Source: a virus. Taken from it: a DNA stretch of 45,725 bases. Shown one piece after another: positions 4,938-43,685 of this stretch (its first letter is position 1; every line of letters begins with the position of its first letter). Location: the IMG/VR virus record IMGVR_UViG_3300009285_004618, positions 1 to 45,725 of that record; one strand, given 5' to 3'. Under the pieces are notes generated by a model. The model saw nothing but the letters and a program-made list of their open reading frames with translations, was not told where the DNA came from and made no database searches. Both the position numbers and the translations under genes were made by a program.

Positions 4938-6566
4938 ATGAAGTATCTGATTAGCTTAATAATACTGTGTTTTTCGCTCTCTCCGGCCTATGGAGATATT
5001 GTAGATGGAAAAATTAGCGATTCATTTGAGGTAATCGAAGTGGATGGTATTTCCGCGCCTTCAGTATCCCCTTCCAACACCGGAAGGTTATACTATGATA
5101 GCACGCTTGACTATATACTCTTATCCGAAAACGGGGCGGCATATGCAAGATTATTAAGCACATTAGCGGCGGATCTCCTGTACTTCCTTCTCGACCAAAC
5201 CACCGGCCAGACTGTCTCCAATGTTGACTCTTGGACTTTCTCGAACTTTGACAGCATAAGTTTAACAGGTTGCCCTTTTACTACGGATAGCACGATAGGC
5301 GCAGGAACACTACTTTTACAATCTGGCTCAATTACCGACTCTACAGGTGCGATTTCCTTTGATAACGAAAATCTCCTCACCACAGGCACTCTCGGAGCAG
5401 GGGTATCTACATTATCTACAGTAAACTTCGGTTCCGCCACAGGAGTATCCGCTACCGCTATAAATGGCACTCTTACCTTGCAAGGTCTTGGTGACGGGTT
5501 TGATGAAAGTATGACTATTGACCTGAATACCACTACCAATAGAATATCTATCGGCACAACAACTGGTGCTACAACATTCGGTTTAACAGGAACATTCACG
5601 AACTTTGGCTTACCTAATGGAGCATACTGGGGACAGAATGGTTGCTATATACCAAGCAACTTTTCACTTCTCCAATATCAAGCGGCGGCTGGATATATAA
5701 CGCCTTTTAGGTCTTACAACACTGGAATGATTGAGAATACTCTTATTCTCTATACTGGTCATGTCGGTATTCAGACTACCGCTCCCGATAGGCATTTGGA
5801 AATCAATGTAGGTGCGGCGACTGGTGGTATACGCCTCACTTATAATGACGCCGATGGTTCAGCCATAGTCTACGGTGATATTCTGCTTGATAGCTCAGGC
5901 AATATGTCAATCACCCCTACGGGCGGGACGCTTACAGTCAACGGAGATATCTCGGTATCAGGTAATTATATCCCTCAAGGTGATCTCAATCTCGGCGGTT
6001 ACGGAATAACCACAATCAATCAGGCAGGTGGAGATTATGATACTGTTATCGAATCCGACACCGACGCAAACTTCTTCTTTCTTGACGCCGCAGGGGCAGG
6101 GCATCTCGGACTTGGGATAGGCACAGCACCGACAGCCCTACTTCATCTTGGTGCAGGGACTACAGCCGCAAATACTGCACCGTTTAAACTTACATCAGGG
6201 CCGTTATTAACTGCCGCTGAAGCAGGGGCTATTGAGTTTCTTACTGACGACTATTACGCTACTATTACAACGGGCACAGCCCGCAAGAGGTTCGTCTTTG
6301 CTGATGCAGGTGGAACGGGTGGGGCATTGACCGCTACAAGAGTTCCGTTTGCTACTACAAGCGGAAGATTGACTGACGATGCTGATATGATATTCGCAAC
6401 TGATACTTTAACGATTACAAAATTAGTCATTACCACAAGTCTTACTACAGTTGGTGGAACAGCTCCTGTAGCTGATGGCACATATAATGTAGATGGAAGT
6501 GCTGGGGGAACGGTTTCAAGTTTTACTACAAAAAGTGGCATAATAACTGCTATAACTACGAGATAA
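4938..6566 (+). CDS. Tail fibre/spike-like protein with Sec signal peptide
   Basis: A 542-residue protein that opens with a signal peptide (MKYLISLIILCFSLSPAYG, cleavage after A-Y-G). The rest is rich in Thr, Ser, Gly and Asp with repeated short beta-strand patterns (GTLTVNGDISVSGNY, LLHLGAGTTAANTAPF), typical of trimeric phage fibres. A stretch near residues 380-410 (GLGIGTAPTALLHLGAG) matches the repeat often seen in fibre shafts. The start follows AAAGGGAAAAG. It probably mediates adsorption. The signal peptide is odd, because phage fibres are normally assembled in the cytoplasm. Confidence 0.7.
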   Translation: MKYLISLIILCFSLSPAYGDIVDGKISDSFEVIEVDGISAPSVSPSNTGRLYYDSTLDYILLSENGAAYARLLSTLAADLLYFLLDQTTGQTVSNVDSWTFSNFDSISLTGCPFTTDSTIGAGTLLLQSGSITDSTGAISFDNENLLTTGTLGAGVSTLSTVNFGSATGVSATAINGTLTLQGLGDGFDESMTIDLNTTTNRISIGTTTGATTFGLTGTFTNFGLPNGAYWGQNGCYIPSNFSLLQYQAAAGYITPFRSYNTGMIENTLILYTGHVGIQTTAPDRHLEINVGAATGGIRLTYNDADGSAIVYGDILLDSSGNMSITPTGGTLTVNGDISVSGNYIPQGDLNLGGYGITTINQAGGDYDTVIESDTDANFFFLDAAGAGHLGLGIGTAPTALLHLGAGTTAANTAPFKLTSGPLLTAAEAGAIEFLTDDYYATITTGTARKRFVFADAGGTGGALTATRVPFATTSGRLTDDADMIFATDTLTITKLVITTSLTTVGGTAPVADGTYNVDGSAGGTVSSFTTKSGIITAITTR

Positions 6567-6567
6567 A

Positions 6568-7077
6568 ATGGCAGAACTCATAGTCAGACCAATACGCAAT
6601 GTTTTAAAGTCAGCGAGTTTATCGGACTTTTCTTATATCGATGACGTAGTTACTTATCCCGATATAGACGGAACTGCTGATTATAATAGATTTAATAAAA
6701 ATGACGATAACGAGGTAGAAAAATATGCCTGCACGACGATTGACCACGCTATCGTTTCACAAATTGACATATATCTTTTGGCAAGAGCGTTAAATACTAC
6801 ACAACCACTTACAGGAAATTACAACATCGGCGGTTCGTCAGGTGTAGCAAAGTCTTGGACTGTAGCTCTAACCAATTGGGTTTGGTATACGGATTCTTGG
6901 ACAGGATTATCACTTATTATGAACAGGATTTGCGAGATATGGCCAGGGGCGGGTAACATGGGTAGCAGTGGTTCGGACTACTTAGACGTTGCCGTAGCAT
7001 ATCTTAATCTTACTTACACGATAGGCACTTATCACGGTATTCAAGGCGGTAACATTCGAGGAGGTAATATCCGATGA
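6568..7077 (+). CDS. Hypothetical virion-associated protein
   Basis: A 169-residue protein two bases downstream of the fibre gene, without a signal peptide. It is rich in aromatic residues and Asn (NWVWYTDSWTGLSL) and ends in the tandem repeat GGNIRGGNIR. At the DNA level that repeat supplies a GGAGG upstream of the next start. Its place between fibre genes suggests a baseplate or fibre-accessory role, but I recognise no domain. Confidence 0.7.
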   Translation: MAELIVRPIRNVLKSASLSDFSYIDDVVTYPDIDGTADYNRFNKNDDNEVEKYACTTIDHAIVSQIDIYLLARALNTTQPLTGNYNIGGSSGVAKSWTVALTNWVWYTDSWTGLSLIMNRICEIWPGAGNMGSSGSDYLDVAVAYLNLTYTIGTYHGIQGGNIRGGNIR

Positions 7078-7535
7078 GTTGGGAAGAAATACCGCAAGGT
7101 GATGTAGATAGACTTAGTAAATACGCCAAGATGATGTGCGATGTCGTCCCTCAATGTAATCTCTTATCTTACGAGGATATGAAAAGATTTCTTCGTAAAA
7201 CAGGGGATTATTTTGACTATAAAGATGATGAACATGAAATAGTATTAGGATTTACTTACGCCAATGGTAAAGAGATGTGGAAGATTTCACAGCTCGCTTT
7301 TAAAGGGCTGCTTAACCGTGAGATATACCGAAAGATAGTTGGCGGTATTGTTGACTTTATGAAGCAAAAGAATATTGACAAGGTTTACGCTGTCCGTCCA
7401 AAGCTTCCCGACGATAATATAATGAAGAAGTTTTACGATAGGATAGAAGACTCTACTTACTGGAAGATAATAAAAGAGAAAGACGGAACGTGGACACTAC
7501 CGCTATCAGGGGCGGTGGAGATAAAGGGAGAATAA
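7074..7535 (+). CDS. Hypothetical protein (fibre-operon accessory)
   Basis: A 153-residue soluble, charged protein starting at an ATGA overlap with the previous gene. It contains an alternating helix/strand pattern (EIVLGFTYANGKEMWKISQL, then a basic helix REIYRKIVGGIVDFMKQK), weakly reminiscent of an acyltransferase-like fold. No catalytic motif is convincing. The tight coupling implies co-production with the fibre proteins, for example as an assembly factor. Confidence 0.7.
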   Translation: MSWEEIPQGDVDRLSKYAKMMCDVVPQCNLLSYEDMKRFLRKTGDYFDYKDDEHEIVLGFTYANGKEMWKISQLAFKGLLNREIYRKIVGGIVDFMKQKNIDKVYAVRPKLPDDNIMKKFYDRIEDSTYWKIIKEKDGTWTLPLSGAVEIKGE

Positions 7536-7574
7536 ATGGAAAATCTTTATGAGCAGTATGAGGTGAAAAAATGA
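7536..7574 (+). CDS. 12-codon coupling mini-ORF
   Basis: ATG at 7536 after AAGGGAGAATAA opens a 12-residue peptide (MENLYEQYEVKK). Its TGA overlaps the ATG of the next gene (ATGA at 7571-7574). Several other joints in this genome have the same layout. It probably delivers terminating ribosomes to the next start rather than making a functional peptide. Confidence 0.4.
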   Translation: MENLYEQYEVKK

Positions 7575-8587
7575 GATGGATTATCGGATTACTCTTTTTA
7601 TGGTGTAGTATTTCTTACGCTGGCGATGTGGTAATTACAGGTGGCGGCGCTCCTACTGACGCCGACTATCTTGTAGGCACGGCAAACGGAACACTCTCCG
7701 CTGAAATTGTCGTAGGGACAAGTCCGGGCGGGGAGCTTGGGGGAACGTGGGCCTCGCCTACAATAGATGATAGCCTTGCCGTAACCTCTTGGAACTTAAC
7801 CACTCCTACCATTACTACAAGTTTAACCACAAGTACGCCTACCACGCTTACAGCAGCCGAATTAGACCGATTAGATGGGTTAACTTCTGCTATTATTGAT
7901 GATGATAAAATAGATACTTATACCGAATTAAACACTATCGTTGCCGATGTAACCCTTACTCACAATGGGTTTATAGACACCTTCTCCGAATTAGATGCTA
8001 TTGTGGCGGATAAATCATTAGTGGAAACTACAACTGCCTTTGGGGGGGATGTTTCAGGTACTATCGGTGCGACAGTAGTTGCCAATGACTCCCACGACCA
8101 TTCCGCCGCAGGTTCAACGGTAACTATAAATGCCACCGACATTGTGGATTTAAACGCAGGCACAGACCTTACTGCAGATTTAGAGGAAGAAGTGACAGCA
8201 GGAAGAAGTCTTACTAAAACTGTCCAAGAAATTTTAGCGGACGCCGAACTTTATACTGATTTTAAATCCATAACAATAGAAACTCCCACCGACGCTGATA
8301 ACTTCTTTATGTTTGAAGCCCCACTTGCCTTAACAATAACAAGGATTCATGGAATCGTAGAGGATGTCACAAGTGTTGTAATGACATTCCAAGAGTGCGA
8401 CTCTGCCGGAGATAATGCAGTAACTATAGAAAGTATCACCGCAGATATAAACGGAACTATTGTTACGAGCGGCGATATAGATAATGCCGGAATAGACGCA
8501 GGGGATATAATCAGAGTAGACGTTGGAACGGTTACAGGAACTGTCGGGCAAGTAAACGTAACAATAACATTTACGAAGGATGATTAA
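7571..8587 (+). CDS. Fibre-like protein with Sec signal peptide
   Basis: A 338-residue protein with signal peptide MRWIIGLLFLWCSISYA followed by GDV. The mature part has low-complexity Thr/Asp/Ala beta repeats, a GGDVSGTIGATVVANDSHDHS segment (~157-177) that recurs in phage tail fibres, and a C-terminal compact beta domain (TITRIHGIVEDV...). It starts by coupling to the 12-codon frame. Likely a receptor-binding or fibre-shaft protein; the exported N-terminus is unusual. Confidence 0.7.
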   Translation: MRWIIGLLFLWCSISYAGDVVITGGGAPTDADYLVGTANGTLSAEIVVGTSPGGELGGTWASPTIDDSLAVTSWNLTTPTITTSLTTSTPTTLTAAELDRLDGLTSAIIDDDKIDTYTELNTIVADVTLTHNGFIDTFSELDAIVADKSLVETTTAFGGDVSGTIGATVVANDSHDHSAAGSTVTINATDIVDLNAGTDLTADLEEEVTAGRSLTKTVQEILADAELYTDFKSITIETPTDADNFFMFEAPLALTITRIHGIVEDVTSVVMTFQECDSAGDNAVTIESITADINGTIVTSGDIDNAGIDAGDIIRVDVGTVTGTVGQVNVTITFTKDD

Positions 8588-8596: not shown

Positions 8597-9046
8597 ATGA
8601 AAAAACTATTTATAGTCTTATTACTTTTATGTTTCACAATGCCTTGCATGGCACAGGATAGAATCAAGGTTCAGGTAGAATTTCGTAAAGCTCTCTGGAC
8701 TTGCCCTGTATGCGGGATAGAGGAAATAGAGAATAGGCCAATGGAAGGCGGAGCTTCCTACGAGCATATCTGTAAGAACGGGCACAAGTTTAATCAATCA
8801 GCAGGGGCTATGAAAGAGTATAACAGTGTTATCTCTTACCCTTATACCGACTATCCCACAGTTACTCAAAAAGAGATAGATGATGAAAAGACGGTAAGAA
8901 TGGATAAGTGGATATACGAGATTAAGCATCCTGCTCCGTATACACCTCCTACAAAAGCCGAATTAGAAAAAATGAGAGATGACAAATTGCAGGAAGCAGA
9001 AGAACTACAAAGGCAGATAGATGAAAAAACTATTATTGACCGTTAG
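8597..9046 (+). CDS. Exported zinc-ribbon protein in the fibre operon
   Basis: A 149-residue protein with signal peptide MKKLFIVLLLLCFTMPCMA (C-M-A before QDR). Next come a treble-clef-like pair (CPVCG at ~35-39 and C-x-NGH at ~58-62) and a C-terminal coiled coil (KAELEKMRDDKLQEAEELQRQ). The start follows AAGGAGAG. The last 26 bases overlap the next gene. The layout suggests a periplasmic or virion-bound adaptor holding a metal ion. I do not recognise a named family. Confidence 0.65.
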   Translation: MKKLFIVLLLLCFTMPCMAQDRIKVQVEFRKALWTCPVCGIEEIENRPMEGGASYEHICKNGHKFNQSAGAMKEYNSVISYPYTDYPTVTQKEIDDEKTVRMDKWIYEIKHPAPYTPPTKAELEKMRDDKLQEAEELQRQIDEKTIIDR

Positions 9047-10868
9047 TATTTTTATATTCCTATGCTCTCCAGCGTGGGGGGCTGTCGTAACTTGGCAAGG
9101 CGACGATGTAACTAATCCGACTTTTTGGAATGACGCTGATAATTGGGGCACTGGAACTGTTCCTGTGGCTGGTGATGATGTTATTATAGCTAACGCTAAT
9201 AACTGTTTTGTCAACGCTAATACAGCCGCCCTCAAATCCCTTGATATGACAGGATATACAGGTATACTTTCAGGCACTTTCAATATCACCATAAGAGGGT
9301 TAACGGCTTCAACCAATGTTTGTAAAATTGTAGGGATAGGAACTTGGACAGGGACGCTTATATTTTCTCCTGCATCTACTACCGCCGTTATTCAATTAAC
9401 CTCTAATGCCAATGCCTTGACTACTATGACCGTAACTTCGGGTGCGGCGGTATCTCTCGTAGTTTTGCAAGACAACCTTACCTTCACCGCAGTAAAAACC
9501 TGCTCAATTACTCTTACCGAACGAGGGCTTGATTTAAATGGTAAAACCATAACAGGCAATTCGGCGGTTAATAAATTACTTATAACTTCTAACACGCTCG
9601 GTACTTCAACGAATAGAACTATAACAGGTGCTACTGCCACTTCTTTTAACAACGTAGACTTCCGAAATATATCTTTTACAACCGCAGGGGCATTAGACCT
9701 TACCAATAGTCAGGTTAATTGGATAGGTGATTGTGGAGGCAATTCAGCGACAGGTGGGGCTTTAACCTTCACCACCGCAGATGATTGGTATTGGAACGGT
9801 TCAGGCACTCGTAATTTCTCAGATTATACATATTGGTATACTGCTACTAATGGTGGTGGAACACAGATGGCTTCTACAAGATGTCCTCTACCACAAGATA
9901 ACTGTTTCTTTGATGGTGCTTCAATAGACGGTGCTACTACTGTTGACCAAGATATGCCTCGTGTATGCAAGACACTTGATTTTACTGGGTGTGCGGCAAT
10001 GAATTTTGATATGAATAATATATCCCAAACTTTTTATGGAAGTTTAATTTTTGTAAGTAATGTCACTATAAATTTAGGTGGTTCTTCACAAGTAATCTAT
10101 TTTCAAGGTGATAGGTCAGGAACATTTACATTTACTCCCAATTGGTCAGGTACCGAGAGTACGAAATTCTATATTCAAACTATTGGTGGAGCAATTCAAT
10201 TAGGTAGCAATTTAATTTTAGGTGTAGGTTCAGGTGGTTCTATGTTGCTTCTTGACTATGGAACTTTTGATGCTAATGACTATGATGTAACAATAGGGCG
10301 ATTTAATTCTGATAATTCCAACGCTCGGAAACTCTTAATGGGTAACGGCACTTGGACACTCTTAAACAATGTCGCAGGTATCGAATGGGATATGGGTGTT
10401 ATAACTAATTTGGATGTTGCCTCGTCTGCCGAAGGCTCAATAATAATTACTTCAACTTCAAATGTAAATGATACTTTTGAGGGTGGTGGGTGGACTTATA
10501 ATAATTTAACTATATCTACTTCAACGGGAATTATGACCTTCACAGGCTCCAATACCTTCAACACCTTCACCATAAACGCACCGAAGACGGTGAAGTTTAC
10601 TTCTGGCACAACTCAATATGTCAATTCTTTTGTAGCCACAGGTTCAGCGGGAAACGACATAAACCTTCAAGCGGTAACTACTAATAGTATTGCCACAATA
10701 TCAGATTTAGATGGTGGGACTAATGTAAACGACTACTTAATTGTAGCAGACATAGTAGCAAACGAGGCGAACACATTTTACTACGGGGCAAACGGAAGTG
10801 CTGATGCGGAGAGTACGAATTGGTTGAGTGTGCCAGTAAGCGGACGAAGGATATTTTTAATACAATAA
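9021..10868 (+). CDS. Beta-solenoid adhesin/spike-like protein with Sec signal peptide
   Basis: A 615-residue protein with signal peptide MKKLLLTVSIFIFLCSPAWG. Just after it comes a 'WNDADNWGTGTVPVAGDDVII' type repeat, seen in bacterial surface and autotransporter passenger repeats. The rest is a long run of Thr/Asn/Ser-rich strands (SLDMTGYTGILSGTFNITI, KTCSITLTERGLDLNGKTI), consistent with a right-handed beta-solenoid. Likely a tailspike or surface-binding protein. Its start overlaps the preceding gene by 26 bases. I see no clear catalytic pocket motif. Confidence 0.65.
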   Translation: MKKLLLTVSIFIFLCSPAWGAVVTWQGDDVTNPTFWNDADNWGTGTVPVAGDDVIIANANNCFVNANTAALKSLDMTGYTGILSGTFNITIRGLTASTNVCKIVGIGTWTGTLIFSPASTTAVIQLTSNANALTTMTVTSGAAVSLVVLQDNLTFTAVKTCSITLTERGLDLNGKTITGNSAVNKLLITSNTLGTSTNRTITGATATSFNNVDFRNISFTTAGALDLTNSQVNWIGDCGGNSATGGALTFTTADDWYWNGSGTRNFSDYTYWYTATNGGGTQMASTRCPLPQDNCFFDGASIDGATTVDQDMPRVCKTLDFTGCAAMNFDMNNISQTFYGSLIFVSNVTINLGGSSQVIYFQGDRSGTFTFTPNWSGTESTKFYIQTIGGAIQLGSNLILGVGSGGSMLLLDYGTFDANDYDVTIGRFNSDNSNARKLLMGNGTWTLLNNVAGIEWDMGVITNLDVASSAEGSIIITSTSNVNDTFEGGGWTYNNLTISTSTGIMTFTGSNTFNTFTINAPKTVKFTSGTTQYVNSFVATGSAGNDINLQAVTTNSIATISDLDGGTNVNDYLIVADIVANEANTFYYGANGSADAESTNWLSVPVSGRRIFLIQ

Positions 10869-18391: not shown

Positions 18392-18807
18392 GCAAATTCA
18401 AAAAATGTGATAACCTGTTCCGCGCCATGTTAAAAAAGGAGAGGCCCTTAAAGTGCGAGATATGCGGAAAAAGCCAAGAGGAGTTGCGCTTTCCTCTTTC
18501 CGTCTTTCATATACTCAAGAAATCCACACATCCAAGACTAAGATACGCCCAGATTAACGTGCTACTCACCTGTTTTGCGCCTTATTATTGGGGAAAACAA
18601 TGCCATAATAAATACGAGGATAATAGGCCGCCAGAGATAAAACAGAAGATAGCGGAGGCAAGGGGCCATAAAACTTACGAGGACTTAGAAAACGAACTCC
18701 GCGCCCTCCACGCCACTATGCCGAAACTTGACATAAAAATGCAGGAGATAATCTTAAAACAGGAATGTAACCCCCTTAACCGAACCAAGAAGGAGGAAGT
18801 AAGATGA
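18388..18807 (+). CDS. NinG/HNH-like recombination nuclease
   Basis: A 139-residue protein; I choose ATG 18388 after AAAGGGAAGGGATC. It shows a treble-clef HNH layout: CEICG (~25-29), a 'FHILKKSTHPRLRYAQINVLLTC' segment typical of phage NinG/Rap-like and HNH proteins, and a closing CHNKYED. Cysteine and histidine positions fit a structural zinc plus nuclease centre. Being next to the replication genes, it may process recombination intermediates. Confidence 0.65.
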   Translation: MSKFKKCDNLFRAMLKKERPLKCEICGKSQEELRFPLSVFHILKKSTHPRLRYAQINVLLTCFAPYYWGKQCHNKYEDNRPPEIKQKIAEARGHKTYEDLENELRALHATMPKLDIKMQEIILKQECNPLNRTKKEEVR

Positions 18808-34252: not shown

Positions 34253-35026
34253 ATGAAGAAGTTTTTTGTTTTAGTAATAGCTCTTTATCTTGTGCTTTCC
34301 GGAGTGCCAGCATTTGCCGCAGAAGGAGACCAGATAACAGTAACGGGGTTTAGGGTTGACGCTGATGGAGACGCGATATCCAAGACCCACGTAATGACGA
34401 CGGGGAAATATCGGGAGCTTGACCTTTCTCTGAATGGATTTTTTAGGGATAGTTCATCTACCAGTTCGAAGGCCCTCGTTCAGCTCGGAGTAGCTACTTC
34501 GGCGACACCCTATTTATATTCGACAGGGTATCTGCCGTATATTATCTATCCGATAAACAGTACCATAACTACTACAAATCTTGGAAGGGTTGGTACAAGA
34601 AGGACGGGTAAGAACGCAAGTCCGATAGTACAGACATTCAGGGTGCCTGACGATTACTTAGGTACTTCTGCCGCGTTTATTATAACCTGTCAGAACGAGC
34701 CTACGGTAGCGTCAATTATTACGCCGTGTTACTTGGACTGGGATATAACAATATTTAACGATGGCGACGAAATGGCGGGTACCGCTCCTACACGTTACGG
34801 GCAACAGCCCATAGTGATAGGGAATACCTCAAAATCAGCTCTTACTACTGCGTCCTTAATCGAGCAAATTACGCTTACATATGCGACTCCATCCGGTATT
34901 TCGGCCGGGGATATGATTACACTTAGATTATGGCCGACATATACTTCTGGCGGGAGTTCGGCGTATAGCGCGACACAGGCAGTAAGGATTTATGGAGCAT
35001 CGTTTAAATATCTGGCACAATGGTAA
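34253..35026 (+). CDS. Virion-region protein with Sec signal peptide
   Basis: A 257-residue protein after AGAAAGGAGACGCT. It starts with a clear signal peptide (MKKFFVLVIALYLVLSGVPAFA, A-F-A before AEG). The mature part is a beta-rich domain (TVTGFRVDADGDAI; TFRVPDDYLGTSAAF) that looks like a virion surface protein. It closes the head operon before the terminator. A signal peptide on the gene right after the capsid gene is unexpected. Confidence 0.7.
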   Translation: MKKFFVLVIALYLVLSGVPAFAAEGDQITVTGFRVDADGDAISKTHVMTTGKYRELDLSLNGFFRDSSSTSSKALVQLGVATSATPYLYSTGYLPYIIYPINSTITTTNLGRVGTRRTGKNASPIVQTFRVPDDYLGTSAAFIITCQNEPTVASIITPCYLDWDITIFNDGDEMAGTAPTRYGQQPIVIGNTSKSALTTASLIEQITLTYATPSGISAGDMITLRLWPTYTSGGSSAYSATQAVRIYGASFKYLAQW

Positions 35027-35071: not shown

Positions 35072-36169
35072 ATGCAGAAATATTTTGTAGCGGGACTCTT
35101 ATTTTTAGTCCCCTTGATATATCATTCGCAGATGGGTCTTATCATTAACCCATTTGTGTATTCACAGATAGCGGTGGTGCTATTAAGCCTTGCATTTGTC
35201 TTAATAGGCACTGACCTGCCCCTTACTGTCCGTTTATTTTACATATGGTGCTTTGTAGCGACTTTTCATTCCGAGATACCGCAGTTTTCCGCGATAGCCC
35301 TAATCGGAATTACTTTATTTATCCTTCTTTATAAATTCATTCTTAAACTTTCAAAAAGCGATTTGGAGTACTGTTTTGAGATAATAGCTCTCACTTGCGC
35401 AGTGCAGGTATTCTGGATATTCGCTCAGGTTCTTAATAAAGATTTTATAATGAATCTGGGCCGTCCGCAAGCGCTTACCTATGGTTCGATGGGAAATCAT
35501 AATATATTAGGAGCATTTTTCCTATTCTCAATAATACCTATGTATAAATATAAAAAGTGGTCTATTATTCTTCCGATTATAGGGATATTTTATTCTCATC
35601 CCGGGTCGTCTATTTATGCGTTATTAGGTGGAGTACTATTTTACTTCCTTTTCTCTCAAAAATTTACAATGAAAACGAAACTAATCCTCGTCGGAATTAT
35701 GTTGATTGCTACCGTGCTTTCTTTTAAGGTGGATAATCCTATTTATAAGGCAGGTAACGGCAGGTTTCCTGTATGGAAACAGATTATCAAGAAAACAACA
35801 GAAGAAAATATGATAGTCGGGCATGGATTGGGATTATTCAGGTTCGAAGTATGGACTAAAGACGGCGCGGTTTATGATAACAAGACTACAAAAATACAAT
35901 GGCCCCAGGCCCATAATGTCTATATTCAGGCGTGGAGAGAACAGGGGTTAGTCGGGATGATAATAATGATTATGATACCTCTCGCCATGTTTATAAATTT
36001 CTTAAGAAATAGAACTGAGAAGACATTACTTTGGATGTCAGGGGTGGTGATGATATGCTTAAACGCCTTTGGGAATTTTCCCGACAGAAATTACACATTG
36101 GCACTCTTAATAGTTTTCGTGTTCGCCTGTTCGAGAGTATTTGGAAGCAAAGAATCGCTATTTTCGTAA
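35072..36169 (+). CDS. O-antigen ligase/polymerase-like membrane protein (copy 1)
   Basis: A 365-residue protein with about ten membrane helices and one large periplasmic loop (~225-300). The loop carries the Wzy/WaaL hallmarks: NGRFPVWKQI, IVGHGLGLFRF and AHNVYIQAWREQGLVG. Such proteins join or polymerise lipid-linked O-antigen in the outer leaflet of the inner membrane. No ribosome binding site is seen, so it may be read only weakly. It probably alters host surface sugars after infection, excluding other phages. Confidence 0.8.
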   Translation: MQKYFVAGLLFLVPLIYHSQMGLIINPFVYSQIAVVLLSLAFVLIGTDLPLTVRLFYIWCFVATFHSEIPQFSAIALIGITLFILLYKFILKLSKSDLEYCFEIIALTCAVQVFWIFAQVLNKDFIMNLGRPQALTYGSMGNHNILGAFFLFSIIPMYKYKKWSIILPIIGIFYSHPGSSIYALLGGVLFYFLFSQKFTMKTKLILVGIMLIATVLSFKVDNPIYKAGNGRFPVWKQIIKKTTEENMIVGHGLGLFRFEVWTKDGAVYDNKTTKIQWPQAHNVYIQAWREQGLVGMIIMIMIPLAMFINFLRNRTEKTLLWMSGVVMICLNAFGNFPDRNYTLALLIVFVFACSRVFGSKESLFS

Positions 36170-37281
36170 TAGCCCTTCTTGCCATACCAATACTCGGATA
36201 CATACCGGATTCGAACATACCTATGAGCGTAAATAAATGTATGCTTGCCGAGTGGTTGACGTTGGGTTTTGTAGCATTGTTCTTTTTCAAGAATAAATGG
36301 CATAAAGCGTGGGCGCTATGGATAGTGATGTGTATGGTTATGATGTTTAACCGGCTATCCTATATTGAAACGAATACCATAATGTTCTATATGCTGTTCT
36401 TTCAGATACTTGCAAATCGCCTTACTGACAAGAATATCAATCTGATTTATAACGGTATAGCCGTAATAATCTTAATCCAATTTGCTATGGTGGTTATGCA
36501 GTTCTTTCACATATATAGATTTTATATGTTAAAGCCCGGATATGATGCCTTGAGGCATACACCTGGAGTGATGGGAGAAATAAACTCAGGAGGGGCATTA
36601 TTTGCGGCTGGACTACCAGTATTCTTGCGAGGGAAATTAAAGATATGTATTCCTCTTGTTATTATCGGAATATTTCTGTGCCAATCCTTAATGCCTATGG
36701 TATCGGTGGCGTTTGGGGCGTTCGTATATACGAGCATAATGTTTCCGCGTCTACGTTTTTATATCTTTGGAAGCGCGATTGTGGCTACTGTGGCATATGC
36801 TTTAAAACACGATAATATTTCTTTTCTTATGACTGGGAATGGGCGACTTGAGACTTGGAAAAATATCTGGAGCCTCATATCCGACAAGCCGATTAAAGGT
36901 TGCGGTATAGGGCATTTCAGGGTAGTGTTCCCGGCTATTGATATTGCCGTGTTTAGGAAAGGTTCTACCGTCGCTTGGTTTACGGCCCATAACGAATTTT
37001 TACAGGTTATATGCGAACAGGGGATTATAGGGTTTGGTTTAATGATGGGATTTATATGTTCAACGATTGAACGATTTATGAAGAAAATAACGGGAGTGGG
37101 CTTGCCGGCATTGATAGGGGTAATAATAATATTAGTCAATTCAACGGGGCATTTCGTAATGCATACAACAATAGGTTTGATAGCGATAACCTATTTCGCA
37201 ATAATAATCAACCAAATAGGAGGTAGAGATGAAAAAGGTAATATGTTTAGCCGTAATATTCCTTCTTTTAACATCGTATAG
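36055..37281 (+). CDS. O-antigen ligase/polymerase-like membrane protein (copy 2)
   Basis: A 408-residue multispan membrane protein from ATG 36055 after GGGGTGGTG, overlapping copy 1 by 115 bases in another frame. It matches copy 1 in order: NGRLETWKNI, GCGIGHFRVVF, TAHNEFLQVICEQGIIG. It is a second Wzy/WaaL-type enzyme, diverged after duplication or acquired with copy 1. The two may form one enzyme or act on different steps of lipopolysaccharide assembly. Confidence 0.8.
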   Translation: MLKRLWEFSRQKLHIGTLNSFRVRLFESIWKQRIAIFVIALLAIPILGYIPDSNIPMSVNKCMLAEWLTLGFVALFFFKNKWHKAWALWIVMCMVMMFNRLSYIETNTIMFYMLFFQILANRLTDKNINLIYNGIAVIILIQFAMVVMQFFHIYRFYMLKPGYDALRHTPGVMGEINSGGALFAAGLPVFLRGKLKICIPLVIIGIFLCQSLMPMVSVAFGAFVYTSIMFPRLRFYIFGSAIVATVAYALKHDNISFLMTGNGRLETWKNIWSLISDKPIKGCGIGHFRVVFPAIDIAVFRKGSTVAWFTAHNEFLQVICEQGIIGFGLMMGFICSTIERFMKKITGVGLPALIGVIIILVNSTGHFVMHTTIGLIAITYFAIIINQIGGRDEKGNMFSRNIPSFNIV

Positions 37282-37663
37282 TTTTGCGATAGAAGGAGTG
37301 CAGACGCTTGAGAAGGTAACGAATAATACCATGATAAACGGCACGACTTGGACATGGACGCCGGATATCACAAGTCAAGCCAAGATAAACAGCATATCCG
37401 TAGTAACCCGGACTAACTGCACGGAGTACATAACGATTTATTTGGATTCGCAAAACGGCGCATCTTACGACTGCGTGCTTAATGCCACATCGGGATCGTA
37501 TGAATCGTCTTACGATAGATTTCAAAATAGCCGTTATTATTTCTGGCAACCGGATTATGACTTTATTTTAGAGAAAGATGATAACCTGAAAATAACGATT
37601 ACAAGCGATGGGCATGTAGCGACTCAATGGTTTACGGTAACAGTTAAGGGCGAAATACAATAA
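37229..37663 (+). CDS. Exported virion-region beta protein, copy with signal peptide
   Basis: A 144-residue protein after AATAGGAGGTAGAG, overlapping the membrane gene by 53 bases. Signal peptide MKKVICLAVIFLLLTSYSFA. The mature domain has the pattern YITIYLDSQNGASYDCVLN ... LKITITSDGHVATQWFTVTVKG, which aligns with the next protein. It appears to be a secreted paralogue of it. Role unknown; perhaps a decoration or adsorption protein. Confidence 0.65.
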   Translation: MKKVICLAVIFLLLTSYSFAIEGVQTLEKVTNNTMINGTTWTWTPDITSQAKINSISVVTRTNCTEYITIYLDSQNGASYDCVLNATSGSYESSYDRFQNSRYYFWQPDYDFILEKDDNLKITITSDGHVATQWFTVTVKGEIQ

Positions 37664-38010
37664 TGACAAAATGGTTGCGAAGCCCGATAACGACATCGCA
37701 AGATTTATCGGCAGGGGCCCTTCTTTACACGACCTCGATAGGAAGGAACTTCCGCCTTGAGAAAATATATTTCAAGGCAAGCGTCGCTATAACGGAGACT
37801 ATTACCATTACCCTTGATTCTAAACAGGGTGCTAATTATGACATTGTTTTAAGGGTAAAGGGACTCTCCTCGGAGTCGAGTTTTATCTATGTGCCGGAAG
37901 GGTTTGACGCGGTTTTTCTATCAGGAGACGAGATAAAGATACAATGTACAAATGCCAATCTAACGGGAACAATCTATGTTGAAGTAAAAACTTCAGAATT
38001 GCAGGGGTGA
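37663..38010 (+). CDS. Beta protein, paralogue without signal peptide
   Basis: A 115-residue protein starting on the last base of the previous stop. It shares the order ITITLDSKQGANYDIVLRV ... DEIKIQCTNANLTGTIYVEVK with the upstream protein but lacks any signal sequence. The pair is therefore a natural comparison of exported and cytoplasmic versions of one fold. Probably a small virion decoration or fibre-accessory domain. Confidence 0.65.
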   Translation: MTKWLRSPITTSQDLSAGALLYTTSIGRNFRLEKIYFKASVAITETITITLDSKQGANYDIVLRVKGLSSESSFIYVPEGFDAVFLSGDEIKIQCTNANLTGTIYVEVKTSELQG

Positions 38011-38013
38011 ACC

Positions 38014-38889
38014 ATGAATGAACAATTAGAGAAAGATAAGAGAGGAATTGAAGCGGATATCCTGACTTTACGCATAAAGAAGGCTAATTTTGAGAAGGAT
38101 AATACTCATTTACTTAATGTAAAGGCAAGGATAGAAGAGGATATCAATAGATTATCCAAGAGCAGAGAACACTTTGCCGAATTAAGTAATAAGGCCCAGG
38201 ACGAGTATTTGGCAAATAAGAAGAAGGCCGAGGGTGTCTTAAAAGAAGCCGAAGAGCAGAAGCATGCCAATTTAAGAGAGAAGCACGCCTTAGACAATGT
38301 GGCAAATGAGCAAAAGGCGGAAAAAGCAAGCCTAAATGCTTTTGAGGTTAATCTTAACAAAAGAAGCCAAGAGCAGGATAATCGGGAAGAAAAGCAGAAC
38401 CAACGCGATATTGATTTAGATGTTAAAGACAAGGTAATACAAGATGACAGGCAAAAACTTAACGAGGAGAAAATAGAAGTTGTAAACCGCAGGCAGGAAG
38501 CTATAAATGCTCAAGCTGAAATTGAACGAATCAAGACTAAAGAGATTTTTAAGCTTGATGAGATAGAACAGATAAAACAGCAGTATGAGATAAAGATACA
38601 GGCAACGGAAGAAGCTAAAGCCAAATACGACCGCGAGACCGCGAAGAATGTGGTATTGAATAGGCAACTTGACATAGAGCGGACGGATGTCGCCATTTCC
38701 AAGAAAGAGAGCGAGGATAGAACTGCGGAACTTAATAATAAGGAAAAGTCTCTTGATAGGGTTAGAGGGGCTCTCGAAACGAAAGAAAAAGCTTTAGAAA
38801 TTACACAGCTCCGCCTTGAGAAAAAGTTGCGCGAGAATGGTATGGAAAAGGAGCTTGAAGCACTTAAAAAAGAATTGAGGGAATTATGA
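38014..38889 (+). CDS. Long coiled-coil protein
   Basis: A 291-residue protein composed almost wholly of heptad repeats (NTHLLNVKARIEEDINRLSK; RTAELNNKEKSLDRVRGALE), rich in Lys, Glu, Asn and Gln, with no globular domain. Located before the head-tail adaptor gene and coupled to it by ATGA. It may be a tail stalk, a spacer or a scaffold for the connector. Confidence 0.65.
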   Translation: MNEQLEKDKRGIEADILTLRIKKANFEKDNTHLLNVKARIEEDINRLSKSREHFAELSNKAQDEYLANKKKAEGVLKEAEEQKHANLREKHALDNVANEQKAEKASLNAFEVNLNKRSQEQDNREEKQNQRDIDLDVKDKVIQDDRQKLNEEKIEVVNRRQEAINAQAEIERIKTKEIFKLDEIEQIKQQYEIKIQATEEAKAKYDRETAKNVVLNRQLDIERTDVAISKKESEDRTAELNNKEKSLDRVRGALETKEKALEITQLRLEKKLRENGMEKELEALKKELREL

Positions 38890-39530
38890 CACGGACAGAG
38901 ATAATAGAGAATTTCCGAGTTACCAATCCCGAAATTACGGACAGGGTTATTTCCGACGCTGAATTGGCAACTTTCTGCAAGGAAGGGGATAAAGAGGTCT
39001 GCGCAAGGACACGATGTATCGTAGGAGATGAGACTTGGGATGCGGTAGAGGATAATGATAACTATGACCTCACGACATACATATCCAAATTCTACGACAT
39101 TGATGAATACCCTGGGGGCGGGGTTTCCTACGATGATAATAGATTAAAAAAGACTACTATCGCCGAATTAGATCAGCTTACTCCAAGTTGGAGAACTAAC
39201 GATAGTGGCACTCCTACAAAATATTACAGGCGTGGAAAGTACCTATATTTGAACAAGCCGCCGGACGATACCCTTGAGATACATGTTTACGCTGTTTTAA
39301 TAAGCGATGATTTTGACGCTGATAATAAAACTCCTTATAACCAGTTGGCTTATTTAGCGCCGTTTCATCCGGCGATAGTAAGATATTTGACAATGAGAGC
39401 AAAGGCGAAGGTAGGGAAGCCTCAAGAAGCGAAACAGGCGGAAGCAGAATACCTTACGTATAATGTATGGATGAAAAATGAGATAAGTGGAGGAAAGCGT
39501 GGTGCGATTTATTTCCAGCCTAAAGTCTAG
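38886..39530 (+). CDS. Head-tail adaptor (connector) protein
   Basis: A 214-residue protein coupled to the coiled-coil gene. Its pattern of SDAELATFCKEGDKEVCARTR, LTPSWRTNDSGTPTKYYRRGKYLYLNKPPDDTLEIHVYA and HPAIVRYLTMRAKAKVGKPQEAKQAEAEY is typical of podovirus adaptors (tubular A or P22 gp4 type) that extend the portal. It directly precedes the nozzle-like gene, as in T7 and P22. Confidence 0.75.
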   Translation: MTRTEIIENFRVTNPEITDRVISDAELATFCKEGDKEVCARTRCIVGDETWDAVEDNDNYDLTTYISKFYDIDEYPGGGVSYDDNRLKKTTIAELDQLTPSWRTNDSGTPTKYYRRGKYLYLNKPPDDTLEIHVYAVLISDDFDADNKTPYNQLAYLAPFHPAIVRYLTMRAKAKVGKPQEAKQAEAEYLTYNVWMKNEISGGKRGAIYFQPKV

Positions 39531-41829
39531 TTTTTTAATATTCATATTACTGATAAGTCCTGCCCAGGCGCAGGAACTTAAAAATCAGATATATGTAATA
39601 GACGACTTTAGTAAAGGTCTCGATCTTAAGTCTTCTCCCTTCTCTTTATCCAAAGGCACAGCCGATATCTGCGAGAACATAAGGATAAATGAGGAACTTA
39701 AGTCTATTTCAAAAAGAGATGAGATACTTTTATTCGGCACTGCGGATACGGCGGAGTCCATCCTCGGCATGCACCGGCTCTATCTTAAGTCAGGCACGAA
39801 AGTCTTATTAGTCAATCACGGCGATGAGATAGAGACCGCTTCAGATACAACGGGAGTTTTTACACCTATACTTACAGTTACGACAGGAGATCATAGGTGG
39901 AATTGGACAACGTGGAATAATCAGGCTATCGGTACCGACGGATACAACCAACCCGTAAAATATGACGGCTCATCCGCTTCAGCCACTTATTTAGGCTCTT
40001 GCCTTGCGACAGACGCTGGATCGGGCGCCGGCCCAAATGGAACTTATACCTATAAGGTGGTATTTTACACGGCTTCTTATTCTATTTCTTTAGGTGTAGC
40101 TTCCAATTCTATTACTGTCGTAGATAATGATATTACTTTAACTATGATACCCATAGCCCCAGATACAGTCTACGGCGAGGATATCGTAGGAAGGAAGATA
40201 TACCGAAGTGAGACGGGTGGGGCCGGCACTTATAAACTCCTCTCAAACGGCACGATAGCGGATAATACTACGGTTACATTGACCGATTCTGACGCGGATG
40301 GGGCTCTGGGGGCTGCTTTAAGCGTTACAGCAACTTATACCGTGCCTAAAGGCAAATTCCCCCTTATACACAAAAATAGGCTCTTTTTAGCCAATGACCC
40401 TTCTTACCCTTCAAGGATATATTATTCAGAGGACGCTAGCCCTGATTATTTCCTGTCCACGGCTTATTTTAACATAAGACCCGATGATGGGGATGAGATA
40501 ACCTTCGCCAAGACTTTATTAGGCATACTCACAATATCAAAGAATAACACTATACAGAAATTATACACAGACGGGGATACTCCTTCATCCGATTGGGCTA
40601 TATCCGATCCTTACAGTTATATAGGTTGTCAGGCCCCTTATACCGTGCAGGAAAGCCCCATAGGCATTATTTATTTAGGAATAGATGGTTTATACAAGTT
40701 TAACGGGCAGTATTCCACTTTATTATCTGATGTAATCACGCCTGAGATTAAGAATATATCAACTTCAAATGTAGGGAACTCTTGGGGGATATTCCATAAG
40801 AATACCTATTATATGACTTATACTTCGGGAGAGGGTGGATTGTCAACGAATGATAGGGTGTTAGTTTACGACTTATTAAGCAACTCCTACGCGATAGATA
40901 AATTGAGTATAAACGTCTTTTGCGCTTTTAATTCTGGTACCGATTGGGGAGTACTCTATTCAGGTTCGTCCACTAACGGAAAGGTCTACGCCCACTCAAG
41001 ATCGAGCTACGAATTGATACACGGCACTCATTCCGATTTTGCCGGCACTTGGGATGATATGAGATATATTCCTGTAGCGGTGGGCGGAGATGCCGATAAT
41101 CCCATAATAGAAATGGCTTGGACTGCCACGATAGACTCTTTAATAGGTACGATAAATAATATGACCGGAACGATAAATAGAGAAGATGCCGACGGAAATT
41201 ATACTTCGCAAGTTCTGACTTTAGGAGCTTCTGTTTTTGATAAACTATATTGGAACGAATTGCAAACCTCGACAGGCGGTGCTACGACAGATGTTACCAT
41301 GCAGATAAGGGCAGGAGCTACCTCTACTGTTTATGGTGCTTGGTCGAGTGAATACACAAATCCCGCAGGATCGGATATATCGGGGGCCACGCCCAATACT
41401 TATGTCCAGTATAAAGTCAATATGTCCTCATCCGGTGCCGCGTATACACCTTACCTTACTAAAGTGTCTAATTATGTAGTGAAGATTACCTACAATAAAG
41501 AGGGAGCTTCAACCGAAAGTACTATACCCCTACATTGGCGATCGGGTTGGACTCATTTAGGATACCCTGGGTACACGAAGGTACTCCGTAAAGTCTATTG
41601 TTTACACGAAGGCACATCTGGGACATTAGCGTTGAAATTCGAGAACTTGGAAGGGGATAGCGATACCTTTAACATAAACTTGGCGACTAACCCGACGAGT
41701 TATAATAATTATTTCACGAACGGAGCATTTGTTGGGGAATGGTTCAGATTAGATATTTCTGAAACAAGCCTTTATGCTTTGAATGCGAAATCAGTTTACT
41801 TAATTTTTGACGTTGAGCCGATATATTAA
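39499..41829 (+). CDS. Tail nozzle-like protein with Sec signal peptide
   Basis: A 776-residue protein; I place the start at GTG 39499 after GTGGAGGAAAGC. After the signal peptide (VVRFISSLKSSFLIFILLISPAQAQ, cleavage after A-Q-A; only the last part is hydrophobic) comes the well-known opening of nozzle/tubular B proteins: VIDDFSKGLDLKSSPFSLSKG, ICENIRINEELKSISKRDE. A beta-propeller-like body follows (NRLFLANDPSYPSRIYYSED). T7 gp12 and P22 gp10 are analogues. A signal peptide on this protein is highly unusual. Confidence 0.8.
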   Translation: MVRFISSLKSSFLIFILLISPAQAQELKNQIYVIDDFSKGLDLKSSPFSLSKGTADICENIRINEELKSISKRDEILLFGTADTAESILGMHRLYLKSGTKVLLVNHGDEIETASDTTGVFTPILTVTTGDHRWNWTTWNNQAIGTDGYNQPVKYDGSSASATYLGSCLATDAGSGAGPNGTYTYKVVFYTASYSISLGVASNSITVVDNDITLTMIPIAPDTVYGEDIVGRKIYRSETGGAGTYKLLSNGTIADNTTVTLTDSDADGALGAALSVTATYTVPKGKFPLIHKNRLFLANDPSYPSRIYYSEDASPDYFLSTAYFNIRPDDGDEITFAKTLLGILTISKNNTIQKLYTDGDTPSSDWAISDPYSYIGCQAPYTVQESPIGIIYLGIDGLYKFNGQYSTLLSDVITPEIKNISTSNVGNSWGIFHKNTYYMTYTSGEGGLSTNDRVLVYDLLSNSYAIDKLSINVFCAFNSGTDWGVLYSGSSTNGKVYAHSRSSYELIHGTHSDFAGTWDDMRYIPVAVGGDADNPIIEMAWTATIDSLIGTINNMTGTINREDADGNYTSQVLTLGASVFDKLYWNELQTSTGGATTDVTMQIRAGATSTVYGAWSSEYTNPAGSDISGATPNTYVQYKVNMSSSGAAYTPYLTKVSNYVVKITYNKEGASTESTIPLHWRSGWTHLGYPGYTKVLRKVYCLHEGTSGTLALKFENLEGDSDTFNINLATNPTSYNNYFTNGAFVGEWFRLDISETSLYALNAKSVYLIFDVEPIY

Positions 41830-41832
41830 CCT

Positions 41833-42405
41833 ATGAAAAAACTTATATTCATACTTTTATTATTTACGACTTCGGTATTCGCCGCACAGGACATTATCCC
41901 CGAACCGCTTGAAGGCAAGCCTGTTGATGTAATTGCGGTCAACGAGGAGATACGCAAGACTTATGACAAAATAGATACGGAAATAGCTGATGTAAACGCC
42001 GACATAACTACCGCGAATGCCGCTATAACTGCACTTACGGTAAGGGTCGAGGTGCTTGAAGCGAGTTCTGTTTCTTCCGAAAAACTTGTTAAAGGGTGGG
42101 TAGTATTCGATGGTACGACTAATACAGCAGGATACTGCACAATACTTGATAGTTATAATGTAGATTCTGTGGCAGATAACGGTGTTGGCGATTACACGAT
42201 AACATGGACGACAGATTTTGCGAGCGTCAATTATGCGGTAGCTGGTTGGGCTTCAAGGGATTCAGGTAGCAATAGTTGTTATGTTACAGCCGCAAATGCC
42301 AGTCCATTAGCAACGAGTTCAGCAAGAATATTGGTAATTAAGCCTGCTGATACCCCAAATGATACTTCTCTAATTTGTGTGATGGCAATCGGAGATCAAC
42401 CCTAA
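41833..42405 (+). CDS. Fibre protein with signal peptide and coiled-coil neck
   Basis: A 190-residue protein: signal peptide MKKLIFILLLFTTSVFA, a coiled coil (DTEIADVNADITTANAAITAL, ~45-75) for trimerisation, and a C-terminal beta domain (~88-190; VKGWVVFDGTTNTAGYC ... DNGVGDYTITWTTDF). The beta domain is a form widely seen at the tips of phage tail fibres. Likely a receptor-binding tip. Confidence 0.75.
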   Translation: MKKLIFILLLFTTSVFAAQDIIPEPLEGKPVDVIAVNEEIRKTYDKIDTEIADVNADITTANAAITALTVRVEVLEASSVSSEKLVKGWVVFDGTTNTAGYCTILDSYNVDSVADNGVGDYTITWTTDFASVNYAVAGWASRDSGSNSCYVTAANASPLATSSARILVIKPADTPNDTSLICVMAIGDQP

Positions 42406-42482
42406 CGCCTAAAGATATAAAAGGTTTCCAAAAAGGTCAAGTATCAACATAGAACAGAAAAAGAATATAGGGAGATACAGAT

Positions 42483-43352
42483 ATGAAAAAAATATTGTTA
42501 GTGATGTTAATGTTAGGATTATGCGTTAATGCTTTTGGAGCTGATCAGTGGGCGAAAGACGACCCCGCTGGGACAAGAAATGCCAGCGATTTAGATACCT
42601 ACGTTACTGTAAATAATGAGGCATTGGATAGACTTCTCTACCTCACGCGAGTAAACTGCACAGTTATTCCTAATACCGTAGCCACCTTAACAGTTCTTCC
42701 CGGCACACTTGCTCTTCCTAATTCCGACGGTTCAGTTGTAAGATGGCGCAGGAATACCGCGAACACTTCTGTAACTTGGGCGAACATAGATACGGGTTCA
42801 GAAGCGGTATCCACTCAATATTACGTATGGGGAGTTGGAGATGCGGATGCTACCACTTTTACCATAATGATTTCTACAAGTGCCTCAGCTCCTACTGGAG
42901 CAACCTACTACCGTAAAATCGGATACTTCTACAATGACGCTTCGGGAAATATCGTATCCGTCGGAAATATCAAAGAAGGAGATGTACCTAATACCATATG
43001 CGTAACGGGAACTACCGACATAACTACTACATCAACTTCTTATACGGATATGACGGATATGGTGGTTTACTTTGTGTCAAGCGGCAGGTCAGTTACTGTT
43101 ACATTCAACGCTCCGATAGGGATTTCTGCTACCAGTAATGCCTCTTATGCGATTGATATAGATGGAACAGATAAGGTCGAGACGTTTTTTCAGGATAATA
43201 ACGATTACCGTAAGCCTATTAGCATGGGTTGGAGTGAAGTTTTGTCGGCAGGAGCGCATACAATAAAAGTTCAATGGAAAAATAGTTCAGTTACATCGTA
43301 TCAAGACGGTGCAAGTTACGGGGCAAGAGTACTCACAGTAAGGGAGGATTAA
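42483..43352 (+). CDS. Virion-region protein with Sec signal peptide
   Basis: A 289-residue protein after AGGGAGATACAG. Signal peptide MKKILLVMLMLGLCVNAFG, then a beta-rich protein (NTVATLTVLPGTLALPNSDG; TTFTIMISTSASAPTGATYYRKIGYFY) with a C-terminal domain (AGAHTIKVQWKNSSVTSYQDGASYGARVLTV) resembling fibre-tip domains. A further adsorption protein is likely. Confidence 0.65.
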   Translation: MKKILLVMLMLGLCVNAFGADQWAKDDPAGTRNASDLDTYVTVNNEALDRLLYLTRVNCTVIPNTVATLTVLPGTLALPNSDGSVVRWRRNTANTSVTWANIDTGSEAVSTQYYVWGVGDADATTFTIMISTSASAPTGATYYRKIGYFYNDASGNIVSVGNIKEGDVPNTICVTGTTDITTTSTSYTDMTDMVVYFVSSGRSVTVTFNAPIGISATSNASYAIDIDGTDKVETFFQDNNDYRKPISMGWSEVLSAGAHTIKVQWKNSSVTSYQDGASYGARVLTVRED

Positions 43353-43685
43353 ATGAGAACAATAATATTTGTAGTCTGCTTATTCTGGACGGTCAATAGT
43401 TTCGCGTTAGAACTTACGCAACAGCAGTATGATAATCTTGACATCCTTCATAAAGCGGTAAAAGCGAAGCACGCGGATTTTCTGGGATTTTCAGGAACGA
43501 AGGAAGATATGAAAGTCGTAGGGAATGTAAGTGAGAGCGATGTAAAAAAAGAAATAGACAAGGTTAATCTTAATACGGCTATTACCGAAAAAGAAGAAAA
43601 GATAAAGTCTGACGAGAAAAAGGCTATTTTAGATAAATTAGGCATAACAGAGAATGAGCTAACTAAATTGAAAAACTTACCATAG
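43353..43685 (+). CDS. Small exported helical protein
   Basis: A 110-residue protein starting at the base after the previous stop (AGGGAGGATTAA). Signal peptide MRTIIFVVCLFWTVNSFA (S-F-A before LEL). The mature part is helical and Lys/Glu-rich (ITEKEEKIKSDEKKAILDKLG). It may be a periplasmic accessory of the exported fibre set. No family was recognised. Confidence 0.6.
   Translation: MRTIIFVVCLFWTVNSFALELTQQQYDNLDILHKAVKAKHADFLGFSGTKEDMKVVGNVSESDVKKEIDKVNLNTAITEKEEKIKSDEKKAILDKLGITENELTKLKNLP

Follow-up and report, generated by a model that had tools for sequence, protein, structure and literature searches.

To our knowledge, the whole assembly of a tailed phage is assumed to take place in the cytoplasm, and in P22 the head–tail adaptor and the nozzle are added in successive steps of tail completion. 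In the filamentous phages (Inoviridae), by contrast, coat proteins pass through the secretion machinery of the host before the virion is assembled. The DNA analysed here, the 45.7-kb IMG/VR virus record IMGVR_UViG_3300009285_004618 (45,725 nucleotides; "the window" hereafter means this whole stretch), resembles the latter in mechanism only, through virion proteins that appear to be exported, and no kinship is suggested; it differs in belonging to a tailed phage with terminase and portal in which only outer parts carry a Sec-type signal peptide (SP). One of these parts is the tail nozzle, which has in common with the nozzles T7 gp12, P22 gp10 and that of Pa223 the fold over most of the length and a gene placed after that of the adaptor, and which is distinguished from them by an SP of about 24 residues in front. 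From the distribution of such signals in the window and its relatives, we lean towards a scheme in which the outer parts are exported, fold in the periplasm and are joined late to heads made in the cytoplasm.

Open reading frames (ORFs) were called mechanically and scored for an SP with a rule-based scorer of our own (pass threshold 7.5). In a 50-kb region of E. coli K-12, 9 of 12 Sec proteins and 0 of 30 others pass, the Sec labels being our own assignment and the raw score used there omitting the penalties for start codon and ribosome-binding site that are applied in the genome scans. In the penalised scan of the window, 11 of 56 ORFs of at least 80 aa reach the threshold, namely the ten genes named in the original prediction and a lipoprotein-like gene at 18804, as against 4 of 231 in the pooled controls (Fisher p = 4.7e-6). 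The latter comprise T7 (0/37), N4 (1/37 in 50 kb), crAss001 (1/45 in 50 kb), P22 (2/51), MW202601 (0/28 in 25 kb) and the outgroup record G006 (0/33). The four control matches are an N-acetylmuramidase, a lysis-regulatory protein, Rz and an ORF overlapping P22 ORF56 and abc2; none of them is an annotated virion protein, and no SP was scored in the T7 ORFs or on an annotated P22 structural gene. All ten starts named originally are indeed of the Sec/signal peptidase I type. They share a basic beginning (K/R), a hydrophobic core of 9–12 residues as scored and a correctly placed small-x-small site, for example AYG/D, SYA/G, AFA/A, SFA/I or AQA/Q (the slash marks the predicted cut).

The identity of the nozzle (39499..41829, plus strand), already proposed in the original prediction, was confirmed at the level of the fold. 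Using an AlphaFold2 model built from a 20-sequence alignment (predicted local distance difference test, pLDDT, 85.8), a Foldseek search of the PDB gave phage tail or portal–tail entries for all of the first 31 matches, T7 gp12 being found with E 7.9e-14. With VIA-align, Z reached 28.3 for the Pa223 tail (452 residues), 26.9 for the crAss001 muzzle and about 25 for P22 gp10; among the 50 matches listed, unrelated beta-propellers attain a Z of up to about 22 along alignments shorter than 300 residues, and nozzle entries align over 313–471. The fold is thus matched over most of the length, and the gene stands directly after that of the head–tail adaptor (38886..39530, plus strand; phrog_399, E 5e-10), which has no SP (family 0/22). 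The SP of the nozzle covers residues 1–24 (about 39499–39570; MVRFISSLKSSFLIFILLISPAQA/QEL; score 9.0–9.7), a part that is modelled as a low-confidence helix. Since model residues 28–30 align with residues 1–2 of several known nozzles, the SP looks like an add-on whose removal would leave approximately the usual N-terminus. The start codon is a GTG at 39487, 39499 or 39502, which corrects the start given before. Since the first 60 mature codons contain no ATG, GTG or TTG, initiation immediately behind the SP is ruled out.

A search with the nozzle protein yielded 27 related loci, 25 of which entered the SP count together with the window and the locus L031 (L012 and L017 were dropped, their gene start being cut off). 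In this set the SP is present in 25 of 27 loci, the exceptions being L028 and L003. Conserved alternative starts downstream of the hydrophobic segment, named beforehand as a point that would speak against export, were looked for in the same set: an SP followed by 60 mature codons free of any start occurs in 6 of the 27, the window included, two of which (L007 and L013) begin alike. Over 171 pairs, identity amounts to 24% in the SP region and to 45% in the rest of the nozzle; the SP drifts in sequence and is nevertheless kept, so that it is the signal itself that is conserved. Unsignalled nozzles are found, besides T7 and P22, in L028 and in the more distant relatives L029, L030, L032, L033 and L034, and the nozzle tree, whose branches are long, requires three changes between the signalled and the unsignalled state. 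Taken together, the SP argues against a nozzle that is made and assembled in the cytoplasm, as far as this can be read from sequence.

The distribution of signals over the virion was then counted in 56 records, the proteins being sorted by similarity to 21 window proteins after removal of their first 28 residues, so that the signal itself makes no matches, and rows with a cut start being dropped. None of the 201 inner proteins has an SP (terminase, portal, scaffold, capsid, adaptor, the proteins at 32837, 37663, 38014 and 43696, and the 1405-aa lysozyme protein), in agreement with the earlier observation that soluble neighbours such as adaptor, capsid and ejection proteins lack such starts. 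By contrast, 45 of 54 outer proteins are signalled, or 36 of 45 once the nine contributed by the window are left aside, in counts that contain some near-duplicate records (L059/L060, L061/L062, L088/L089 and G002/G014). These are 19 of 24 nozzles, 12 of 15 Mtd-like proteins, 5 of 5 members of the family of the gene at 4938 and 9 of 10 others. Among the five nozzle misses, four score 7.0–7.3 and the fifth is L003; the three Mtd-like misses are one at 7.1 and those of L002 and L017. The predicted boundary of export therefore falls between adaptor and nozzle.

In the three loci just named, a minus-strand ORF (L002, 3832–4449; L017, 3182–3613; L003, 4213–4653) sits exactly where the SP-coding part of the Mtd-like or nozzle gene begins. 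It is of the HNH/NUMOD3 type in L002 and L017 and has no Pfam match in L003. In L002 and L017, a stretch resembling a ribosome-binding site and an MKK or MKR start precede this ORF and a hydrophobic core follows it; an intron as the explanation in the three loci found no Rfam match. As for L031, it is a distant phage-like contig (JAHFKK010000004.1) in a metagenome-assembled genome of the Gottesmanbacteria, a group that we take to lack an outer membrane; besides a signalled nozzle homologue, it has five further signalled ORFs among 19.

The second conserved site of the signal is probably the head surface. The gene that follows the one for the major capsid protein (33313..34236, plus strand; phrog_371, E 7e-10; without SP, family 0/35) is signalled in 30 of 33 loci (the window plus 32 loci, some of them near-duplicates); in the window it encodes a 257-aa protein (34253..35026, plus strand; SP about 34253–34318, AFA/AEG; score 10.6). 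Its homologue in L058, modelled in place of the window's own protein (pLDDT 81.6), matches two spikes, the tailspike CBA120 TSP4 at E 1.4e-5 and, at E 4e-4, the capsid spike of Pa223. A BFVD search at E 0.001 gave 272 matches, of which the 50 listed are mostly unnamed phage proteins with a few named tail or tail-fibre. By this modelled homologue, the capsid-adjacent protein is probably a head spike.

Stretches of Cellulophaga phages, scanned as a control of novelty, revealed the nearest parallel. In phi10:1, the products of the consecutive genes gp091–094 are virion proteins by tandem mass spectrometry (MS/MS) according to the GenBank record and have raw scores of 8.5, 7.5, 8.6 and 8.2; a signal is absent from the nine further structural proteins that were scored (portal, capsid, connector, tail). 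The proteins gp101–104 of phi19:1, also virion proteins by MS/MS according to its record, score 8.5, 8.6, 8.2 and 7.2, and signalled neighbours of the same kind occur in phi46:3, where two of three genes have a signal, and in Ingeline_1, where all three do. Like the window, these four phages thus have consecutive signalled genes, theirs being tail/fibre and pectate-lyase genes. Unlike in the window, the signals of phi10:1, presumably a phage with tape-measure-type tail genes to judge from the gene order, are confined to the adsorption end, and Gln prevails at position +1 in the Cellulophaga phages. The penalised scans gave 4/66 for phi10:1, 2/62 and 0/13 for phi40:1, 1/54 and 0/40 for phi14:2, 2/59 for phi38:2, 1/56 for phi19:2 and 2/62 for phi38:1 (first 50 kb only); in the scans other than that of phi10:1, no annotated structural gene is signalled, the one exception being a pectate lyase of phi38:2 that has structural genes on either side.

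Gln stands at +1 in 6 of the 8 MS/MS proteins as scored; gp101 would be the seventh if cut two residues earlier, and gp104 has Lys. In Bacteroidetes, according to PMC5837995, in which the words phage and virus are absent, the +1 residue is Gln in the majority of signal peptidase I substrates, which suggests that such signals follow the export machinery of the host. In the clade of the window, Gln at +1 is rare across the signalled ORFs (17 of 132), which disagrees with the Bacteroidetes rule, but common when the signalled nozzles are taken alone (16 of 25), so that the +1 residue does not tell the host of the clade. The 42 residues that open phi10:1 gp094 and contain its signal are found again, at 88–93% identity, in phi13:2, phi18:3 and Nekkels_1, in genes annotated as pectate lyase or structural protein with no other similarity to gp094; this start is perhaps an exchangeable module for signal plus attachment.

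These phages qualify the statement of the original prediction that no described tailed phage has this pattern. In the open-access literature, as far as the texts were available and with subscription papers and preprints outside the search, we recognised no paper describing tailed phages with SPs on their nozzles, spikes or fibres, and to that extent the statement stands; it does not extend to phi10:1 and phi19:1, which carry signals on MS/MS virion proteins. In the accessible parts of other sources, one or two signal peptides were counted in two Bacteroides phages (PMC5723332), a signal was placed on an endolysin (PMC8951688), and the main text of a flavobacterial-phage paper (PMC8776804) does not contain the term signal peptide.

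How would such a virion be made? With a signal on outer parts only, kept across divergent phages, and whose removal leaves about the usual N-terminus, export and cleavage followed by late joining to cytoplasmic heads are the simplest reading; of these, export and cleavage in the host of the window phage are highly probable. The original proposal that late parts of the virion are exported gains from the retention of the SP despite its drift, from the sharp inner/outer split and from the add-on character of the SP, whereas their addition in the periplasm or at lysis is what we infer beyond these data. We propose that the outer parts (head spike, nozzle, fibres and receptor-binding protein) would be made as Sec pre-proteins, cross the inner membrane, be cut by the host signal peptidase I and fold in the periplasm. 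Left in the cytoplasm would be capsid, portal, scaffold, adaptor and ejection proteins as well as DNA packaging, and the seam would run along the adaptor/nozzle junction and the outer head surface. Once the inner membrane is breached at lysis, the two halves could meet, nozzle and spikes docking on filled heads. That the exported molecules are those found in virions seems likely; that the joining takes place at lysis is favoured by a smaller measure; and glycosylation of virion parts, to which we turn now, appears possible, if doubtful.

Two genes that the original prediction had left out lie inside the structural module and encode membrane proteins of the O-antigen ligase family Wzy_C (PF04932), copy 1 at 35072..36169 (36.3 bits) and copy 2 at 36055..37281 (47.4 bits), both on the plus strand and both above the cut-off of 31.7. 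Such a gene is present in 24 of 38 records (6/15 plus 18/23; 16 over the cut-off and 8 below), usually just behind the signalled capsid-adjacent gene and typically between two signalled genes; the order capsid gene, signalled gene, gene with multiple transmembrane segments is found in 20 of 33 loci. On the 44.6-kb L031 contig there is no Wzy_C match at E 0.01, all seven matches lying on a contig of more than 1 Mb. A profile of seven Wzy_C-type proteins, three of them without a Pfam match in the protein scan, matches the WaaL structure 7tpg (E 1.3e-4), and 23 sequences share conserved columns for Arg (0.91) and His (0.83), which were equated with WaaL R288 and H338 by motif, not by structure. 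The Pfam match, the 7tpg match and the two columns are thus common to the window and to WaaL/PglL, whereas the phage copy differs in its place in a late operon, between capsid and adaptor and flanked by signalled virion-type genes. Conversion genes such as gtrAB of P22 and Wzy-beta lie outside the structural module, in contrast to Wzy_C of the window clade, which lies inside it. They are likewise phage genes acting on O-antigen, according to the P22 annotation for gtrAB and to the part of PMC4815439 available for the Wzy-beta of Pseudomonas. The Wzy_C enzyme may act on the periplasmic side, since conserved motifs of known relatives are on predicted periplasmic loops, and would most likely attach a host lipid-linked glycan to the outer parts or to the cell surface.

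This raises the question of whether the outer parts are exported mainly to be glycosylated in the periplasm by the phage ligase with host lipid-linked glycan, an explanation that we regard as conceivable but hardly probable. Besides the gene order and the conserved Arg and His columns, it could invoke the finding that PglL-type ligases often adjoin the gene of their likely substrate (a pilin gene in 21 of 31 bacterial cases, according to PMC3643930). The signalled proteins, once mature, also contain about 20% Ser+Thr. The PglL_A motif (PF15864) is over the cut-off in 0 of 19 records, being weakly matched below it in 2 and absent in 17; the E. coli control scores below the cut-off as well, and the Wzy_C enzymes are for this reason not called PglL. 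Moreover, since some signalled loci do without Wzy_C, glycosylation is not the general reason for export. The Ser+Thr content of signalled proteins (20.4% versus 11.4%) is probably that of beta-fibres, because the unsignalled protein at 37663 is equally rich (21.7%). Genes for glycan synthesis are few: of 23 records, two contain a glycosyltransferase 2, which in one case is the fragment in the window.

A different role for the exported pool would be to act on the envelope, as decoy, superinfection block or receptor mask, with the virion built in the cytoplasm from an untranslocated leak. A shield for the cell could come from receptor-binding proteins placed outside it, the Wzy_C enzyme might modify the cell surface, and lambda Lom, a signalled phage-encoded protein outside the virion according to PMC12309495, would be a precedent. 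Nozzle and head spike, however, have no obvious job outside the virion, and a nozzle incorporated from such a leak would still carry its SP, uncut, ahead of the usual N-terminus. In addition, the signalled proteins of phi10:1 and phi19:1 are in virions according to the records, which are silent on cutting. We therefore consider this explanation unlikely. Still less likely are starts that stay uncleaved and function, in virions assembled in the cytoplasm or at the inner membrane, as membrane anchors or as membrane-active peptides, the latter being the alternative already raised in the original prediction. Membrane-touching virion proteins are common in phages, and the helix modelled at the SP end of the nozzle could fit. 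It is disfavoured by the small-x-small sites, which are kept despite sequence drift, by the presence of the same signal on head spikes, fibres, a receptor-binding protein and small proteins, and by the Gln at +1 in Cellulophaga phages, which fits substrates of the host signal peptidase. Finally, hydrophobic ORF starts that are untranslated or non-functional, an artefact to which our own scorer, mechanical gene calls and the GTG start of the window nozzle could have contributed, are highly improbable in view of the E. coli and phage controls, the conservation across dozens of records and the lack of an alternative start in several loci.

Export of the outer parts with late joining, the scheme that we prefer, has to face several observations that weigh against it. 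All SP scores come from the rule-based scorer, not from SignalP, and in the penalised scan phi10:1 gp092 falls below the threshold. According to their records, phi10:1 and phi19:1 belong to the same family and share some of the proteins concerned, so that they are not independent. The unsignalled protein at 37663 is a paralogue of the signalled one at 37229 (28% identity, E 2e-9), and L059, L063, L065 and L070 keep signals without a Wzy_C gene. Heads of P22 and T7 lose their DNA without adaptor and nozzle, and late joining would consequently need another plug. As to the host, a comparison with genome contigs gave 6 weak matches among 62 candidates, none of them close. Composition does not speak for an adaptation to the periplasm either. 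Disulfide bonds as the reason for export were rejected, as signalled proteins show no excess of cysteine (0.87% versus 1.30% in unsignalled ones; 110 and 341 proteins), and cysteine counts do not separate nozzles with an SP from those without. An adaptation in charge or in Ser/Thr fared no better, the ranges of signalled and unsignalled nozzles overlapping for K+R (0.060–0.082 and 0.066–0.101) and for S+T (0.173–0.231 and 0.126–0.196), with at most a mild shift.

The other signalled genes of the window, all on the plus strand, flank this core. Downstream of the nozzle are a 190-aa tail-fibre protein (41833..42405; SP about 41833–41883, VFA/AQD; score 8.1; phrog_11355 tail fibre, E 8e-10), a 289-aa receptor-binding-like protein with the Mtd second domain (42483..43352; SP about 42483–42539, AFG/AD; PF21916, 30.2 bits for a cut-off of 24.6; SP in 12 of 15 family members, window included) and a 110-aa small protein (43353..43685; SP about 43353–43406, SFA/LEL; score 8.5; family 2/3 with the window). 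A diversity-generating retroelement behind the Mtd-like gene was sought and RVT_1 found in 0 of 15 records, many of which are fragments. Between the Wzy_C genes and the adaptor gene, a 144-aa small beta protein (37229..37663; SP about 37229–37288, SFA/IEG; score 9.6) is followed by its 115-aa unsignalled paralogue, conserved across the clade (37663..38010, plus strand; family SP 0/24). Close to the left end are a 542-aa fibre-like protein (4938..6566; SP about 4938–4994, MKYLISLIILCFSLSPAYG/D; score 8.2; SP in 5 of 5 homologues, window included; no Pfam or PHROG family match), a 338-aa fibre-like protein (7571..8587; SP about 7571–7621, SYA/GD; score 7.9; SP in 2 of 2, the window and a homologue in G001), a 149-aa small protein with a C..C...C..H pattern (8597..9046; SP about 8597–8653, CMA/QD; score 8.9; left out of the family-wise counts) and a large beta-rich fibre-like protein of 615 aa (9021..10868; SP about 9021–9080, AWG/AV; score 8.8; no Pfam or PHROG family above the cut-off). 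The original description of ten virion proteins is accordingly sustained for the nozzle by its fold, for the protein at 42483 by the Mtd domain, for that at 41833 by the tail-fibre PHROG and for that at 34253 through homologues. Those at 4938, 7571, 9021 and 37229 are fibre- or spike-like by sequence only, and nothing links those at 8597 or 43353 to the virion.

The lipoprotein-like protein (18804..19145, plus strand; CSSG/C; score 8.5) lies outside the structural module and is probably not part of the outer set. Behind the small protein at 43353 stands an unsignalled glycine-zipper protein (43696..44466, plus strand; weak Gly-zipper match below the cut-off; family SP 0/6), likely an ejection protein. 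The 1405-aa protein at 430–4647, with an N-terminal GH108 lysozyme and a peptidoglycan-binding domain, probably joins a lysozyme carried in the virion to an ejection protein. A papain-family protease and a lytic-transglycosylase-like domain, at 12080–12898 and 13648–14235, with a small membrane protein nearby at 10882, point to a possible lysis region. Within 44469–45725, the last ORF breaks off before a third of a glycosyltransferase-2 domain is complete, and on the minus strand the end of the contig reads as a different protein, which may reflect a rearrangement or an assembly end. Megablast of window positions 8000–30000 gave no match among 50,697 phage records, and a search of the phage collection turned up nothing similar to the nozzle or the Mtd-like protein; the portal has a match at 20% identity and the terminase matches of about 26% at best. 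No tRNA was found in the window.

To conclude, the boldest reading, which we consider less likely than not, is a two-compartment tailed phage, whose outer layer would be exported, glycosylated by a phage ligase with host glycan and joined to the inner half during lysis, a simpler form restricted to adsorption having arisen separately in flavobacterial long-tailed phages. A test case for export is within reach, as phi10:1 and phi19:1 are already cultured and their virion proteins listed from MS/MS data. Besides, the pattern of SPs offers a sequence rule for spotting adsorption proteins, with the +1 residue perhaps a clue to the host phylum. If the proposed export is true, the conserved export boundary between adaptor and nozzle would represent a second assembly route for tailed phages. 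Virion parts could then undergo periplasmic folding, proteolysis and glycosylation, particles would be complete only at lysis, and a coat of host-type sugar might mask the virion or tune its adsorption.

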